NCBI GenBank assembly: GCA_902529885.1
Contig: CABZYC010000005.1
Coordinates: forward strand, 1-42,298
Direction of reading: 5' to 3'
From: an uncultured Candidatus Woesearchaeota archaeon
GTDB lineage: Archaea > Nanobdellota > Nanobdellia > Woesearchaeales > GW2011-AR9
DNA: 42,298 bases
A program made the position numbers and the translations under genes. The notes beneath the pieces were generated by a model that saw only the letters and a list, made by a program, of their open reading frames with translations, searched no databases and was not told where the DNA came from. Positions 4,391-18,822 of this stretch are shown here, one piece after another (position 1 is the stretch's first letter; every line of letters starts with the position of its first letter).

Positions 4391-5095
4391 TTAACCAACA
4401 TAACTTAAATCACGTTTTTGAACAGCTTTTTGAGTCTGGTCTTGCTGCCGTTTTATAGTACGCAACTTCTCTTCAAACTGTTGTGCTTGTTTCTCTAATG
4501 GTTTTGGATCAATATCTAAACCAGTAAACATATCAAATGCCCGAATTATTTGCGCTGCACCTTTACTATCAGGCATCTGAGACTGTGCTTCAGCAAATAA
4601 TGCAAGGATTGGTAACTTTGTATATTTACTAAGTAAAGCACCAGTCACACCAACAATAACACCTTCCTTTAATGGTTGTGCTACCTCAACAACTTTCTTA
4701 AGTTGTTTCTTACCAGTATAATAATAAAACACACGACTTTTACCAGGTTTACTTGAACCTACACCTTCTAAACTAATAACTTGTTTTGCTTCAAGTTTAG
4801 ATGCTAAATCTAATACTAAATCAGCAAGTGCCCAGCCCATGTCACGACCAGCATTAATAGCATGAACAAAAACAAGGTTATGCTTTTTATTATAATGTAT
4901 ACTAATTGGCTCAATAACTTTGCTATTATGTATTGCAACCATAGCTGGAACTTCGTTCATTTCAACAGTACCAATCTTAACAGTGTCTAATTGTTCAAGC
5001 AAAAACTCAAGAGCAATAGTACCAACTAAACCAAAGCCAGGAAAACCTTCAACAATCGTAACACCTTTCGGACGCTTTTTTAATACAAGTTTCAT
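4391..5095 (-). CDS. PAC2 family protein (proteasome assembly chaperone-like)
   Basis: VEGFPGFGLVGTIALEFLLEQL, NEVPAMVAIHNSKVIEPISIHYN, ISLEGVGSS. Confidence 0.85.
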   Translation of the reverse strand: MKLVLKKRPKGVTIVEGFPGFGLVGTIALEFLLEQLDTVKIGTVEMNEVPAMVAIHNSKVIEPISIHYNKKHNLVFVHAINAGRDMGWALADLVLDLASKLEAKQVISLEGVGSSKPGKSRVFYYYTGKKQLKKVVEVAQPLKEGVIVGVTGALLSKYTKLPILALFAEAQSQMPDSKGAAQIIRAFDMFTGLDIDPKPLEKQAQQFEEKLRTIKRQQDQTQKAVQKRDLSYVG

Positions 5096-5126
5096 AAAGT
5101 ATGAAATAAAATAATGGTATTTAATG

Positions 5127-5762
5127 CTATCTAAAACAGTATTCTAATAATAAGTGAGCATCCGGCGACTCTTTCAAATGTGATAAGGCATGCTCATAGT
5201 GCGGAAAATGTTGTAAACGTTGTTGTAAATCTATCCTTGTTTGTTCTGGATGAGATTGGATTGCGTACATGTTACCGTAACGAAACATTTGAAGTTTGTA
5301 CTGTTCACCAGTAGCCAGTAAGGTTGCTCCAGAAGGTAAACGGTCCAAACTATCATTATGCCCACATTGTACTAATAAAGGATTAGGTAAACCGTCCAGA
5401 TTATGTTTTAACTCGATTGTCCCTGTCTCTGCATTCGAAGGATTAAAAATAATGTTGCTACCATAATATTTAGCAATTAGATGATAACCCATACAAACGC
5501 CGACCACACGTTTATCACCAACAGTGTCAAGCAAAGAAGAAATTATCTTAAAAGTATAATCAGCATGTTCATCCTTCTTACTCAAACTTACAGAGCCACT
5601 ACCACCAATCAAAACTGCATCATAGGATTCAACAGAAGGTAAAACATTATCAAAAATGTTGTACCAATCAATATTATAGGAAGGTAAAGAACGTTCAAAT
5701 TGAAAACGTTCAGCAAACATTATTTCTGGGTTTAACCGGATTTGTACTCCAAGAATATTCAT
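5127..5762 (-). CDS. Class I glutamine amidotransferase-like protein
   Basis: GVCMGYHLIAKYYG (nucleophile Cys), CGHNDS, QSHPEQT (His/Glu). Confidence 0.85.
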   Translation of the reverse strand: MNILGVQIRLNPEIMFAERFQFERSLPSYNIDWYNIFDNVLPSVESYDAVLIGGSGSVSLSKKDEHADYTFKIISSLLDTVGDKRVVGVCMGYHLIAKYYGSNIIFNPSNAETGTIELKHNLDGLPNPLLVQCGHNDSLDRLPSGATLLATGEQYKLQMFRYGNMYAIQSHPEQTRIDLQQRLQHFPHYEHALSHLKESPDAHLLLEYCFR

Positions 5763-10271: not shown

Positions 10272-10733
10272 ATGAAAGAAGGAGACATTGCACCAGAATT
10301 CACATTGTTAGACAAAGATAATGTTGAACATTCATTATCACATTTTCAAACGAAGTACACAGTCATATATTTCTATCCAAGAGATAGTACTCCTGGCTGC
10401 ACCTTGCAAGCAAAAGCCTTCACAGACCTCTTACCAACATTCAAAAAGTTGGATACACAGATTATTGGTATCTCTGGAGGTAACGCGAAAACAAAAGAAA
10501 AGTTTTGTGATAAACATAATATCTTAGTATTACTCCTATCAGACCCAGAATATAAAGTTGCTGAAACCTACGGGAGTTACGGTGAAAAGAAGTTTATGGG
10601 ACGAACTTTTCTTGGAGTAAAACGTGATACATATATACTCGATGAAAACAAAAAAGTTATAAAGATCTTCAAAAATGTTAAAGCTGCGAAAAATCCTCAG
10701 GAAATCGTAGACTTTTTACAGTCATTAAATTGA
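10272..10733 (+). CDS. Peroxiredoxin, BCP/PrxQ-like
   Basis: IYFYPRDSTPGCTLQAKAF; FLGVKRDTYILDENKKV. Confidence 0.9.
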   Translation: MKEGDIAPEFTLLDKDNVEHSLSHFQTKYTVIYFYPRDSTPGCTLQAKAFTDLLPTFKKLDTQIIGISGGNAKTKEKFCDKHNILVLLLSDPEYKVAETYGSYGEKKFMGRTFLGVKRDTYILDENKKVIKIFKNVKAAKNPQEIVDFLQSLN

Positions 10734-10742
10734 GTTATTAAA

Positions 10743-11306
10743 ATGGTAAAAATAGACAGTTTAGCACCAGAATTTGAAGCGGACGCGTTCGTTAACAACG
10801 AAATCCGTAAGGTAAAATTAAGTGATTATAAAGGTAAATGGGTAGTACTCTTTTTTTATCCAGCAGACTTCACGTTTGTATGCCCTACAGAACTTGGTGA
10901 CGTAGCAGACTATTATGCACAGTTACAGTCAATGAATGTAGAAGTAATGAGTGTGTCAACCGATACAGCCTTCGTACACAAAGCGTGGCATGATAACAGT
11001 GAGACTATTAAAAAGATTAAATATCCAATGGTGGCAGACCCAACAGCAAGCATCTGTAAACAGTACGGAACATACATTGAAGGTGAAGGTATTTCTTTAC
11101 GGGGGACATTCATTATTAACCCAGAAGGTGTTTTGGTAGCGTACGAATTGCACAGCAATAATATTGGGCGTAACACACAAGAGCTTATCCGAAAACTGCA
11201 AGCTGCACAGTACGTAGCAGAACACGGTGACGAAGTGTGCCCAATGAACTGGAAACCGGGCGATAAAACGCTTAAACCAGGCCTAGATTTAGTGGGCAAA
11301 ATCTAA
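10743..11306 (+). CDS. 2-Cys peroxiredoxin (AhpC-like)
   Basis: FFYPADFTFVCPTELGDVADYY and GDEVCPMNWKPGDKTLKPGLDLVGKI (resolving Cys). Confidence 0.95.
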   Translation: MVKIDSLAPEFEADAFVNNEIRKVKLSDYKGKWVVLFFYPADFTFVCPTELGDVADYYAQLQSMNVEVMSVSTDTAFVHKAWHDNSETIKKIKYPMVADPTASICKQYGTYIEGEGISLRGTFIINPEGVLVAYELHSNNIGRNTQELIRKLQAAQYVAEHGDEVCPMNWKPGDKTLKPGLDLVGKI

Positions 11307-12056: not shown

Positions 12057-12641
12057 ATGGAACAAGCAACATTACCTAAATTATCATACGAATATAATGC
12101 ATTAGAACCTTATTATGACGCACAAACAATAGAAATACACCATAGTAAACATCATGCAGGGTACGTGAAAGGGTTTAATAATGCACAAGAAAAGTTAGCG
12201 CAAGCAAGAGAGTCTAATGATTATACGCTCATTAAACATTATGAACATGAACTAGCGTTCCACGGTGCAGGACACCGGTTACACTCACTGTTCTGGGAAA
12301 ACATGAGGGCAGGTAAAGATGTGAACGAGCCGTCAGAACAGTTAAAACAAAAGTTGGCTAACTCCTTTGGGTCATACGAAGCATTCGTTGCACAATTCAA
12401 AAAAGCTACTGCGACTGTTGAAGGGTCCGGGTGGGGCGCATTAGTGTCACACGATGATGGGTCAATGCACATTCTTGCAATTCATAACCATCAAAACGCG
12501 TTCATCCCAGGATGCAAAGTGTTACTTGTATGCGATGTATGGGAGCATGCATACTACTTAAAATTCCAAAATAAACGTGCAGAATGGATTAATAGTTTCA
12601 TGCACATTATTAATTGGGACGTAGTAGAACAACGCTTATAG
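12057..12641 (+). CDS. Superoxide dismutase (Fe/Mn family)
   Basis: LPKLSYEYNALEPYYDAQTIEIHHSKHHAGYV, DVWEHAYYLKFQNKRAEWINSF. Confidence 0.95.
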   Translation: MEQATLPKLSYEYNALEPYYDAQTIEIHHSKHHAGYVKGFNNAQEKLAQARESNDYTLIKHYEHELAFHGAGHRLHSLFWENMRAGKDVNEPSEQLKQKLANSFGSYEAFVAQFKKATATVEGSGWGALVSHDDGSMHILAIHNHQNAFIPGCKVLLVCDVWEHAYYLKFQNKRAEWINSFMHIINWDVVEQRL

Positions 12642-12713: not shown

Positions 12714-13640
12714 ATGCAAAGATTATCAGAAATTGTTTGGCAAGAACCAGACCTTGTCCTAGACCTTATAAGATATACAAACCGTCACCCGTTATCCATA
12801 TTTGAAGAACGGCATATAGACGTAAGTTTTGTATCAAAAGAAGAATCTAGATCATACTTAAACAAACACATTGAAAATGAGTATGGACAAAAAAAAGTGT
12901 TTAACAGAGATTCATTACGTAAAGGAAACATGTTTGTCAATAAAGGTGAATTAGTATTACCTTTATCATACAACCACGATCATCGAAAAGTGTACGGGGG
13001 AACTTACGTGTTCCCAATCATTGAAGATGATAATTTACCGTTCCTTTTACAAAAACAGTTGCACGCGGTCCACGCACTTGAATCCTACACACCCTACATG
13101 CGTTCACTGCACCAGATGGCGTACGTAGACCCCTTAACAGACCTTGGAAATAAGCGAGCACGAGATGAATATTTACAGTCAGTAAACGAAGGGAGCATAT
13201 TAGCAATAGACATTAACAGATTCAAACAAGTGAACGATTCATTCGGTCATGAGCATGGTAACAGTGTCCTTGCAGAATTAGGAATACTTATTGACAGATA
13301 TTTTATGCGGACAGAAGACCGAGGGTTTAGATGGGGTGGAGAAGAGTTTACAGTAGTACTACCAAACACGCCAATTGAGCATGCAAAAAAGGTCGGGCTT
13401 GATTTTTATAAAGAAGTTGCAAAATACCAATTTTCAACGGAGTACATGGACCTTACTAATAACCAATGTTACATCTATAAACCAAACACAATAACAGTTA
13501 GTGTTGGTGCTGCAGACATTGCTGAAAATTGTTTACTGATAGCAGACGCAAATTTGTACGCAGCAAAAACAGTACAACGTATGCGTGAAGCAAAAGGAAT
13601 TATTCCTTTAAGCCCACAACTTGAATTCCCTGTGAAATAA
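12714..13640 (+). CDS. GGDEF-domain protein (putative diguanylate cyclase)
   Basis: DPLTDLGNKRA, AIDINRFKQVNDSFGHEHGN, RTEDRGFRWGGEEFTVVLP (RxxD I-site and GGEEF A-site), ITVSVGAAD. Confidence 0.9.
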   Translation: MQRLSEIVWQEPDLVLDLIRYTNRHPLSIFEERHIDVSFVSKEESRSYLNKHIENEYGQKKVFNRDSLRKGNMFVNKGELVLPLSYNHDHRKVYGGTYVFPIIEDDNLPFLLQKQLHAVHALESYTPYMRSLHQMAYVDPLTDLGNKRARDEYLQSVNEGSILAIDINRFKQVNDSFGHEHGNSVLAELGILIDRYFMRTEDRGFRWGGEEFTVVLPNTPIEHAKKVGLDFYKEVAKYQFSTEYMDLTNNQCYIYKPNTITVSVGAADIAENCLLIADANLYAAKTVQRMREAKGIIPLSPQLEFPVK

Positions 13641-13715
13641 TTATGTACAATTACAACACGTGTCACATGCTTGACACGGTTCACACGTAATACTATTTTG
13701 ACATGAACAATCCAT
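13641..13715 (-). CDS. 24-aa cysteine-rich peptide MDCSCQNSITCEPCQACDTCCNCT (8 Cys)
   Basis: Read directly; SD CACGGAGGTG 5 nt upstream of ATG and a TATA-like TTTATTTAA about 40 nt upstream (13751-13759). Confidence 0.7.
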   Translation of the reverse strand: MDCSCQNSITCEPCQACDTCCNCT

Positions 13716-13847
13716 TATTACACCTCCGTGCTAACACATATTTCATAATATTAAATAAAGTTTATCTCTTCTTGATCCTTCATTTAAAGTCATAACTTTA
13801 TTTTCTGCTTAAATAAGTTTATTAGTAAGTACCATCTCCACTAAAAA

Positions 13848-14090
13848 ATGACATACAAATTGTACCAGTTTAAAGAATGCCCATACTGCGCAAAAGTTAG
13901 AGGTTACCTCCAAGAAAACAAAATTGAATGTGAACTAATAAACGTTAGTTATGACCGTGATAGTGAAGAACGTAAAATGTTATTAAAACAGTCAGGAGTG
14001 GGCACAGTTCCAGTGTTACAGCATAATGAAAAATTTATTGGGGACAGCACGAGAATAATAGAGTATCTAAATGAACATCATACAAAATAA
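13848..14090 (+). CDS. Glutaredoxin
   Basis: YQFKECPYCAKVRGYL (CPYC), VGTVPVLQHNEKFIGDS. Confidence 0.9.
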   Translation: MTYKLYQFKECPYCAKVRGYLQENKIECELINVSYDRDSEERKMLLKQSGVGTVPVLQHNEKFIGDSTRIIEYLNEHHTK

Positions 14091-15036: not shown

Positions 15037-15078
15037 ATATATATACCAGAACACCACGTGTTTAAACAGGGGTGTTAC

Positions 15079-15855
15079 ATGAAATTATATTTAGACAGTG
15101 CTAACATTAAAGAAGTTGAGACCATGATGTCTTACGGAATAATTGATGGGGTTACCACTAATCCTAGTCTATTAAAAAAAGCGTTACCAATATCAGGGCT
15201 TAACATTACACAACATCTTCGTAAACTGTGTAAAATTATGAAAGGGAAACCAGTTTCAATAGAGCTTACACAACGTACGCATAAAGAAATGGTTAAACAA
15301 GCACGTAACATAATTCAAAAAGTAAAATGTAACAACATTGTAATCAAAGTTCCAGTCTGCACAATTATTAATGGGAAAGAAACATTTTCTATGGACGGTA
15401 TTAAAACAATTAAAAGTTTAAGTGAATGTAACATTGAGGTTAACACCACACTCATTTTTACGCCTGAACAAGCATTACTCGCTGCCAAAGCAGGAGCAAA
15501 ATATGTGTCACCGTTCACAGGAAGAATGGACGATTATTTACGAGACACGCACAGAATTAAGTATGACAAAAAAGATTATTATCCGTTCCAAGGAAAAAAA
15601 AATGTTGAGGATGAAGGTATCATAAGTGGAATTGATCTTGTTCAACAATGTGTGGAGATATTAGAATCTTACAATACAGAAGTGCTAGCAGCGAGTGTGC
15701 GTAACACCCAGCAGTTACGAGAATGTAGTATTGTTGGTGCAGACATCATTACTGTTCCTTACACTGTATTACAACTAATGGTGGTACACCCAAAAACAAT
15801 GCAGGGTATGAAACAGTTTGACAAAGATTCAAGCGAGGAATACAAAGCATTATGA
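15079..15855 (+). CDS. Transaldolase (TalC/fructose-6-phosphate aldolase-like)
   Basis: MKLYLDSANIKEVE, DGVTTNPSLLKK, NIVIKVPV, GAKYVSPFTGRMDD; start at 15079 with GGGGTG upstream. Confidence 0.9.
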   Translation: MKLYLDSANIKEVETMMSYGIIDGVTTNPSLLKKALPISGLNITQHLRKLCKIMKGKPVSIELTQRTHKEMVKQARNIIQKVKCNNIVIKVPVCTIINGKETFSMDGIKTIKSLSECNIEVNTTLIFTPEQALLAAKAGAKYVSPFTGRMDDYLRDTHRIKYDKKDYYPFQGKKNVEDEGIISGIDLVQQCVEILESYNTEVLAASVRNTQQLRECSIVGADIITVPYTVLQLMVVHPKTMQGMKQFDKDSSEEYKAL

Positions 15856-16826
15856 TAATTAATCACGGTACACTCTCAAAAAATAAAAAAAAGCATACAC
15901 TCAAAAGTTCTGAGTATAAGGCTATTACAACATTACGTAAAAAGGTTCAAAATAATAAGTGTAAACGGGTTGTCATAGCAGGGATTGGAGGCAGTAACCT
16001 TGGTGTTAAAGCCATCACAGACATTTTCAAGTTACCAATAATCTTCCTTGAAAGTTATAATCATACTCATAAACCACGTAAAGGTGACGCGTTAATTGTT
16101 ATTAGCAAAAGTGGGAATACCAAAGAAACTTTGTACCACTACAAAACAGCTACCATGTACGAAACAGTCCACGTCGTAACAACAAAAGGCAACAAATTAT
16201 GGAAACATGCTAAACGTCAAAACTATAAATGTAGTAGTATACCTGAACTTGTAGGGGGAAGATACAGCATTTTCACGGCTGTGGGCCAAATACCATTATC
16301 ATACACAGATTTTAATGTTGACTCGTTTTTGAAAGGTGCAAAAGATATGCGAGATATTTGTAAAACAACGCATGTAGCCGCACGCATTGCACATTCAACG
16401 TCAGCAAACATTCTTGACACATTCGTGTTTCATTCAGACTATGAATCGTTAGGAAAATGGAACAGGCAACTTATAGCTGAAAGTCTAGGGAAAAAAAAGA
16501 AAGGATTTTTGCCAACAGTAAGTATTGGTACAGTAGACCTACACAGTATGCTACAACTTTATCTTGACGGACCATTCAACGTTTTAACACAGTTTGTTCG
16601 GGTACCAACATCACACCACGACACCATGGACGCTATCATACAAAATTATTCTGAACAAAAAAAAGTGTGGTACGAAATTGGTGTTGACACAACGGCCTAT
16701 GACACAGGTGCATACATGATGTTTATGATGCATTACGTAATGGAGCTTGGCCAAAAAATTAAGGTGAACACGTTTAACCAGCCAGCAGTTGAACGCTACA
16801 AACGTATCATGCGAGGTGAAAAATAA
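15852..16826 (+). CDS. pgi: Glucose-6-phosphate isomerase
   Basis: VIAGIGGSNLGVKAI, VISKSGNTKET, GRYSIFTAVGQIPL. Confidence 0.9.
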   Translation: MIINHGTLSKNKKKHTLKSSEYKAITTLRKKVQNNKCKRVVIAGIGGSNLGVKAITDIFKLPIIFLESYNHTHKPRKGDALIVISKSGNTKETLYHYKTATMYETVHVVTTKGNKLWKHAKRQNYKCSSIPELVGGRYSIFTAVGQIPLSYTDFNVDSFLKGAKDMRDICKTTHVAARIAHSTSANILDTFVFHSDYESLGKWNRQLIAESLGKKKKGFLPTVSIGTVDLHSMLQLYLDGPFNVLTQFVRVPTSHHDTMDAIIQNYSEQKKVWYEIGVDTTAYDTGAYMMFMMHYVMELGQKIKVNTFNQPAVERYKRIMRGEK

Positions 16827-17953
16827 TGAAGATTGTTTTGCTTGGTGGTAGCGGGGACTTAGCAGTCCGTAAACTGTTACCAGCAATACCCAAAAAATGG
16901 GTCGTAACAGCCTACGGTAGAAGAAAAACTAGCTGGGGTAACCTAGTTAAACGATCGAAAGCTAAGTGTAAAGGAACATACAGTGCAGTAAACTTGTTAA
17001 CGTTCAATTGGAACAATACGCTAAACACAGATATTGTATACTGTGCATTGCCAAGCAAGATTTATGTTGACGTTCTTGAACGAATGCCACTCACTAAAAA
17101 TATGATTGTACTATGTGAAAAACCAGTAGGGCATAACACGTTTTCTGCTAAACAATTAATTGAACGGCTTAATAAACTCAATGCAAAAGTGTATTATATT
17201 GACCATTATCTAGGGAAAGGTATACTTGAAACATTTTATTTTATGCATGCCGCAAACCCCTTATTAAACAATAGTTGGCATACAAAATATGTTGAATCGT
17301 GCACAGTTTATATGAAAGAGAATGCTACTGCTAAGCATAGAGCAGAATATTATGATCAAACAGGAGTTATAAGAGACGTTGTACAAAATCACGGGTTACA
17401 ACTTTTAGCACACGTGCTCCTACAAACAAAACATTATACACAAAATACTAGTAAACATCGTGCACAAATTATTGAAGGATTCAAAGTTGTGTCAAGCACA
17501 GTACAACAGTATGAACCATACCATAACAAAAAGAAGGTTCCAACTTATGCAGAACTTGTGCTTGAACATAAAAAGTGGAATAAAACAACGTTCAAAATTG
17601 TTGCAGGTAAAGGTTTAAACAAGAAGTATACAGCAGTACACCTTAAAATGAGGTTGCCACAGTGCCCAGCAGACTTTTGTCCCGTCTCAGACACAGTCAT
17701 ACTAGAACTTTACCCTACGCCAAGAGTACAATTACAATTTTATACAGGCACAAAAAAGTTGGAAACTAAGATTATAGATTTACCATTAAACATTAAATCA
17801 ACACAAGTTGAAGCTTACAATAAAATCTTAGAAAGTATGCCTAATACAGAACTAGTCATTAATGATAAAGAAATTATTGCGCAATGGAACGTTGTAGAAC
17901 CATGCTTGAAAAAAAGGGTTACAAAAAGGTATAAAAGAGGATCAAAAAAATGA
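16826..17953 (+). CDS. zwf: Glucose-6-phosphate 1-dehydrogenase (divergent)
   Basis: LLGGSGDLAVRKLLPAI, VLCEKPVGHN, YYIDHYLGKGILE, QTGVIRDVVQNHGLQLLAHVL. Confidence 0.9.
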   Translation: MKIVLLGGSGDLAVRKLLPAIPKKWVVTAYGRRKTSWGNLVKRSKAKCKGTYSAVNLLTFNWNNTLNTDIVYCALPSKIYVDVLERMPLTKNMIVLCEKPVGHNTFSAKQLIERLNKLNAKVYYIDHYLGKGILETFYFMHAANPLLNNSWHTKYVESCTVYMKENATAKHRAEYYDQTGVIRDVVQNHGLQLLAHVLLQTKHYTQNTSKHRAQIIEGFKVVSSTVQQYEPYHNKKKVPTYAELVLEHKKWNKTTFKIVAGKGLNKKYTAVHLKMRLPQCPADFCPVSDTVILELYPTPRVQLQFYTGTKKLETKIIDLPLNIKSTQVEAYNKILESMPNTELVINDKEIIAQWNVVEPCLKKRVTKRYKRGSKK

Positions 17954-18822
17954 ATATAGGATTTATAGGGTTAGGTAAAATGGGGTCACGGATCGTGAAA
18001 TCGTTAAGTGCATCGTATAATGTAACAGCAACAGACGTTAACAACAAGCAACGGCGTAAACATCAAAAAGTGTGCAACATTGTACCAAGCACAACTGCTT
18101 TATGCGCATCATTAACACCACCGCGCGTAGTATGGTTAATGGTACCTTCAGAACATGTTGACGAAATATTATCTGAATTAATAGATAACCTTCAAAAGGG
18201 AGATATTATTATTGATGCAGGTAACAGCCATTATAAAGAATCTATTGCTCGATCAAGCGTGCTTGATGAAGAAGGTATACAATATCTTGACATTGGAACT
18301 TCTGGTGGAACAATATCACACAAATTGTGTATGATGGTTGGCGGCAGTAAAAGTGCGTACAGAAAAATTGTACCTTTACTAAAAACCTTGTGCGGTGATG
18401 GTTACCAGTATGTTGGAGACACAGGCTCTGGTCATTACGTTAAGATGGTGCATAACGCTATTGAGTACGGGTGTATGCAAAGTTTGGCTGAAGGGTTCCA
18501 TATGTTGCATGAAAGTAAACAGTTCGAGCTTAACACAACAAAGATTGCTCAATTATGGAAGGAAGGATCAATCTTGCAGGGTACACTCCTAAACACAGTG
18601 CACAACTCGTTAAGAAAGGATGGAGACCTACAAAAAAGTACAAGCAAAGTACAAGATACAGGGGAAGGTAGGTGGGCAGTACACGCAGCTATTGAAGAAG
18701 GGATCAGCATACCTTCTCTAACCTTAGCTTTAATGAACAGGTTTGACAGCCAAGATGTTTCAGAGTTCCGTAACAGGTTATTAAGCGCTATGCGACACGA
18801 GTTTGGTGGACATAAAAAGTAA
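17950..18822 (+). CDS. gnd: 6-phosphogluconate dehydrogenase, decarboxylating (GndA/YqeC type)
   Basis: NIGFIGLGKMGSRIV, DIGTSGGTISHKLCMMVGG, GSGHYVKMVHNAIEYGCMQSLAEGFHML. Confidence 0.9.
   Translation: MNIGFIGLGKMGSRIVKSLSASYNVTATDVNNKQRRKHQKVCNIVPSTTALCASLTPPRVVWLMVPSEHVDEILSELIDNLQKGDIIIDAGNSHYKESIARSSVLDEEGIQYLDIGTSGGTISHKLCMMVGGSKSAYRKIVPLLKTLCGDGYQYVGDTGSGHYVKMVHNAIEYGCMQSLAEGFHMLHESKQFELNTTKIAQLWKEGSILQGTLLNTVHNSLRKDGDLQKSTSKVQDTGEGRWAVHAAIEEGISIPSLTLALMNRFDSQDVSEFRNRLLSAMRHEFGGHKK

Follow-up and report, generated by a model that had tools for sequence, protein, structure and literature searches.

The cysteine-rich open reading frame and its locus

The window, which is the whole analysed stretch of 42,298 nucleotides from an uncultured Candidatus Woesearchaeota archaeon, carries on its - strand a 24-amino-acid open reading frame (ORF) with eight cysteines and a GGAGGTG sequence 5 nt before the ATG, exactly as claimed in the first-pass annotation. 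The GGDEF and glutaredoxin genes that were said to flank it and the peroxiredoxin and superoxide dismutase (SOD) genes reported nearby were all seen, and the TATA-like box claimed at about 40 nt before the ATG was likewise located. The features of the locus are as follows.

10272-11306, upstream: two peroxiredoxins
12057..12641, + strand: Fe/Mn superoxide dismutase, 1.0 kb from the peptide
12714-13640, + strand: GGDEF-domain gene, convergent, its stop abutting the stop of the peptide tail to tail
13641..13715 (stop included), - strand: 24-aa, 8-Cys microprotein MDCSCQNSITCEPCQACDTCCNCT followed by TAA, with the spacing CxC-x5-CxxCxxCxxCCxC
13647..13685, - strand: six-Cys module CxxCxxCxxCCxC, common to a microprotein set of the order Woesearchaeales
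13721..13727, - strand: Shine-Dalgarno (SD) sequence GGAGGTG, ending 5 nt before the ATG
13751..13759, - strand: TATA-like box TTTATTTAA, 36-44 nt before the ATG, recognised from the letters only
13848..14090, + strand: glutaredoxin-like gene, divergent from the peptide, with 132 bp of intergenic DNA
15058..18822, + strand: cluster of transaldolase-like (tal), pgi, zwf, and gnd genes (pentose phosphate), assigned from sequence

The tal-pgi-zwf-gnd cluster lies 1.4 kb from the peptide, downstream of the glutaredoxin gene and an RNase D-like gene, and to our knowledge an oxidative pentose-phosphate route encoded in one such cluster is uncommon in archaea. With glutaredoxin, SOD, two peroxiredoxins, and this cluster around it, the window peptide has the redox and sugar-phosphate neighbourhood that characterises the microprotein set described below, and this gene company points to a putative role in redox and metal homeostasis. 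The adjoining GGDEF protein, encoded here by an archaeon, has an intact GGEEF motif, and GGDEF is also present in 17 of 26 relatives and in none of the four archaea among 14 control genomes.

Cysteine accounts for 33% of the window peptide and is arranged in CxC, CxxC, and CC motifs, with no aromatic residue and no histidine. No other ORF of 15-60 aa in the window reaches both six cysteines and 25% cysteine, and none of 400 windows simulated with a second-order Markov model contained an ORF with eight cysteines at 30% or more. Of the five GGAGGTG copies in the window, only two are followed by an ATG at a distance of 3-7 nt: the one before the peptide and one that lies antisense within another gene. 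SDs are lacking from most of the window's genes, which makes a small ORF led by one notable. The TATA-like box would add weak evidence, because the intergenic region is AT-rich.

Searches with the peptide itself gave no direct homologue. A tblastn search of 51 genomes from the window's GTDB family, none of them congeneric, did not find a full homologue, and the lone weak match was spurious, lying within a tRNA-synthetase gene. There was no convincing match in the phage collection searched, a scan of the genome collection (one genome per species) with the glutaredoxin and RNase D found no relative and no congener, and the glutaredoxin loci of relatives, when checked for synteny, had no adjoining Cys-rich small ORF. 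Pfam and NCBIfam models gave no match to the peptide at E-values up to 1, hence none to a curated metallothionein family, and a search of a collection of papers for archaeal metallothioneins found none.

An eight-cysteine microprotein set in Woesearchaeales

Conservation of the cysteine spacing in relatives, which the first-pass annotation had proposed as a check, is seen across the order for the six-Cys part of the spacing, in a set of microproteins with low dN/dS, and no full homologue of the peptide itself was found. When the last six cysteines alone (CxxCxxCxxCCxC) were used as a pattern against 359 genomes of the order, many matches were obtained, against few with the reversed pattern as a control. 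Spurious matches, mostly repeats and antisense frames, occur at ∼0.3 per genome, so a six-Cys match is by itself no proof. The resulting set comprises proteins of 27-36 aa with exactly eight cysteines and the consensus MxECPxCGxEV...CPxCxxCxxCCEC, most of which have start codons and SD-like sites. The dN/dS ratio is 0.06 (G055/G056), 0.08 (G002/G062; dS saturated), and 0.18 (G010/G005), and in these three pairs the members are under purifying selection. A profile of the set (E < 1e-4) matched 18 of the 51 genomes of the window's GTDB family, including two 7-Cys forms, and few genomes outside it; in a scan of named genomes, the archaeal carriers were labelled Woesearchaeota or Nanoarchaeota. 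No Pfam or NCBIfam model matched the set members, and the set is previously undescribed. A profile search of the PDB returned just zinc-ribbon-like partial matches, for example to LysW and L32. The AlphaFold2 model of one canonical member reached a pLDDT of 89 and a pTM of 0.47, and a fold search with it gave no significant match; AlphaFold2 is unable to tell whether the cysteines of such micro-proteins bind metal (PMC11241148).

Fused forms also occur, namely doubles of 62 and 64 aa and an 84-aa triple. Fused triple or double copies lie at L079:1483-1737, L081:1455-1649, and L094 ∼5060-5240, the last being followed by genes for an ArsR-type regulator, a cysteine desulfurase, and IscU. A 48-aa protein with the same 8-Cys layout and an acidic tail was seen in a Candidatus Magasanikbacteria (CPR) genome (L100 ∼610-760), downstream of ATP-synthase genes.

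Among 28 loci, which were picked for carrying a set member and some of which are closely related, so that neighbours counted at different loci are not independent of one another, transketolase lies directly upstream on the same strand in 11, as split genes in most, and 11 C-terminal and 9 N-terminal transketolase domains occur near set members. Pyridine-nucleotide disulfide oxidoreductases (Pyr_redox_2) make up 12 of the 136 neighbouring proteins; with about two such genes per genome, ∼0.2 would be expected near the set loci by chance, a value that assumes about one gene per kb and rests on an estimated gene number. Other neighbours are rubrerythrin (4), the ZIP zinc transporter (3), and SelR/MsrB (2), together with MsrA, IscS/IscU, and SOD.

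Two further Cys-rich small proteins were observed at these loci. In several operons an undescribed protein of ∼60-110 aa with a Lys-rich N-terminus and the motif CPxCGYEAxKLAxLSHCPLCxICxxCxKxVRxCxCxEGE is encoded directly downstream of transketolase (L142:3648-3911, L179:2463, L182:2454, L186:2490, L190:2454, and L191:2469). A 53-aa, 10-Cys protein (MVxASVKCPECG...CGPxGCCITVCxCP; L242:4665-4826 and L243:439-600) is encoded directly upstream of thioredoxin reductase and adjoins a 9-Cys microprotein.

Relation of the window peptide to the set

The C-terminal module CxxCxxCxxCCxC of the set is present exactly in the window peptide, which further resembles canonical members in its two upstream cysteines, its total of eight, its SD, its taxon, and its redox neighbours. 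It differs from them in length (24 vs. 27-36 aa), in a shorter linker, in CCNC instead of CCEC, and in having CxC without a following G in place of the N-terminal CxxCG pair, as is also the case in genome G096. Few residues beyond the cysteines agree between the peptide and the set. Unlike the 11 transketolase-linked loci, the window peptide has no split-type transketolase beside it, the one good match in its genome, at 34%, lying elsewhere, and no canonical set member was found in that genome. The peptide scores 27.0 bits against the set profile uncorrected and 5.6 bits after composition correction, the latter a score that several random ORFs of the window equal or exceed, and the profile search of genomes did not report it. 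Composition-matched shuffles fitted the set as well as the peptide in 133 of 20,000 cases (p = 0.0067, top 0.7%), and a six-Cys module with both other cysteines upstream arises in 0.034% of arrangements.

The full 8-Cys spacing with an ATG, an SD, and a stop was found, besides the window, only in the microprotein MKSTKELCECGAPKSCNGCECCSSCCEC of genome G096, which has the SD GGGGAGGTG and an Fe/Mn-SOD gene 0.4 kb away. Both microproteins thus lie within ∼1 kb of an Fe/Mn-SOD gene, and the residues that they have in common are the cysteines only. In a phylum sample of 275 genomes, to which G096 does not belong, no further microprotein with the exact spacing was found; the exact matches in seven other genomes there proved to be repeats or antisense frames, lacking a suitable start and stop. 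Because the module is shared yet CxC stands for CxxCG, the corrected score is weak, and there is a single exact-spacing match, the window peptide is labelled a short CxC-type relative, presumably of common descent with the set, and is not filed as a canonical member.

The ORF is very probably a genuine small gene of a Woesearchaeota-type archaeon that gene finders missed, and the small-gene claim of the first-pass annotation is well supported, given the ORF statistics, the SD, the order-wide Cys-spacing set, and the exact spacing in G096. An untranslated chance ORF in the intergenic region would fit the failure of tblastn to find a direct counterpart of the locus in relatives, and the SD, which most window genes lack, and the TATA-like box may both have arisen by coincidence in an AT-rich gap; this reading is nevertheless very improbable in view of the simulated windows, a strong SD at ideal spacing, and the existence of both the set and the G096 microprotein. 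An RNA element or terminator between convergent genes, with incidental Cys codons, might be suggested by a 7-bp inverted repeat within the ORF (CGTGTCA-TGACACG) and one terminator-like site. However, the folding z-scores are ordinary (0.49 on the - strand, which leaves a terminator or RNA element no explanatory role, and -0.47), no Rfam family matches, and the set keeps its Cys codons and not the hairpin, so this identity was rejected and its probability is negligible. A real gene that is not homologous to the set, that is, an independent Cys-rich mini-metallothionein whose six-Cys spacing arose by convergence, is improbable but less so than either of these; the corrected score, the CxC in place of CxxCG, the similarity to G096 in cysteines only, and the background of spurious six-Cys matches all speak for it, whereas the common order, family, size class, cysteine number, and SD, and the recurrence of the exact spacing in G096 with its own SOD neighbour, speak against it.

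Predicted metal-thiolate function

Metal-thiolate binding is the most likely chemistry of the window peptide, because it has eight thiols in 24 residues, CxC, CxxC, and CC motifs, and neither aromatic residues nor histidine. Overall, we put at roughly 55% the reading that the peptide is a CxC variant of the undescribed 8-Cys set and acts as a metal-thiolate microprotein, probably with zinc, in thiol or metal buffering. The peptide would fold around a metal, probably zinc, with its eight thiolates as ligands. The first CPxCG of canonical members resembles, together with the CPxC that follows it, half a zinc ribbon, and their tail CxxCCxC would form a second site; in the window form CxC replaces the first CxxCG. 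With SOD, peroxiredoxins, glutaredoxin, and enzymes for NADPH production encoded nearby, the peptide may buffer zinc or thiols, release its metal once oxidised, and be re-reduced by the glutaredoxin/thioredoxin-reductase system. We infer the translation of the window peptide, the identity of its metal, and this redox cycle.

Metallothioneins, including bacterial SmtA and MymT and the short fungal type, are small proteins with ∼20-30% cysteine or more in CxC, CxxC, and CC motifs and no aromatic residues or histidine. The window peptide agrees with them in size, cysteine fraction, motifs, and the lack of aromatic residues and histidine, and thus has their composition, but it has no Pfam match and its canonical relatives are half zinc-ribbon-like. 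The earlier proposal of a mini-metallothionein, redox buffer, or metal chaperone is plausible and favoured by the neighbours of the set, although canonical members do not resemble a classical metallothionein; neither the set nor the transketolase operons in which part of it lies figured in that proposal. The C(P)XCG zinc-finger micro-proteins of Haloferax volcanii are also very small and have paired Cys motifs (PMC11241148, PMC10716476), and zinc was bound by 9 of 14 purified haloarchaeal micro-proteins and not by the others (PMC11241148). Canonical set members resemble these proteins in having one CPxCG and one CPxC each. At 24 aa, the window peptide falls within their size range (<70 aa) but differs in lacking a CG motif, in its cysteine content, in its CC and CxC motifs, and in being far shorter.

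The peptide might instead be a zinc adaptor or redox switch that binds transketolase or another pentose-phosphate enzyme and alters its activity with redox state rather than acting as a buffer. A parallel is CP12, a redox switch of the Calvin cycle with four cysteines and a defined GAPDH/PRK binding motif; the resemblance, one of role only, is that the set too consists of small Cys-containing proteins with ties to redox state and to enzymes of sugar-phosphate metabolism. Such an adaptor would suit the transketolase-linked loci, the second Cys-rich small protein in several of those operons, and the nearby tal-pgi-zwf-gnd cluster. It is nonetheless unlikely, as many loci have no transketolase and instead have thioredoxin reductase, Msr, rubrerythrin, IscS/IscU, or ZIP genes, and a peptide as short and as dominated by cysteine as that of the window leaves little surface for binding a partner. 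Turning from the adaptor back to the metal-thiolate reading, a broader proposal can be put forward tentatively, namely that the undescribed archaeal 8-Cys class, with its double and triple fusions, is a redox-responsive zinc/thiol regulator of the pentose-phosphate/NADPH and disulfide-reductase system, of which the window peptide would be the smallest known form.

Annotation normally applies length cut-offs that exclude genes as short as this one, and searching by cysteine spacing can bring to light microproteins that escape an ordinary homology search. If the proposed function is true, a conserved set of metal-thiol microproteins associated with transketolase and disulfide reductases would provide a new handle on how tiny-genome archaea deal with oxidants, zinc, and NADPH.
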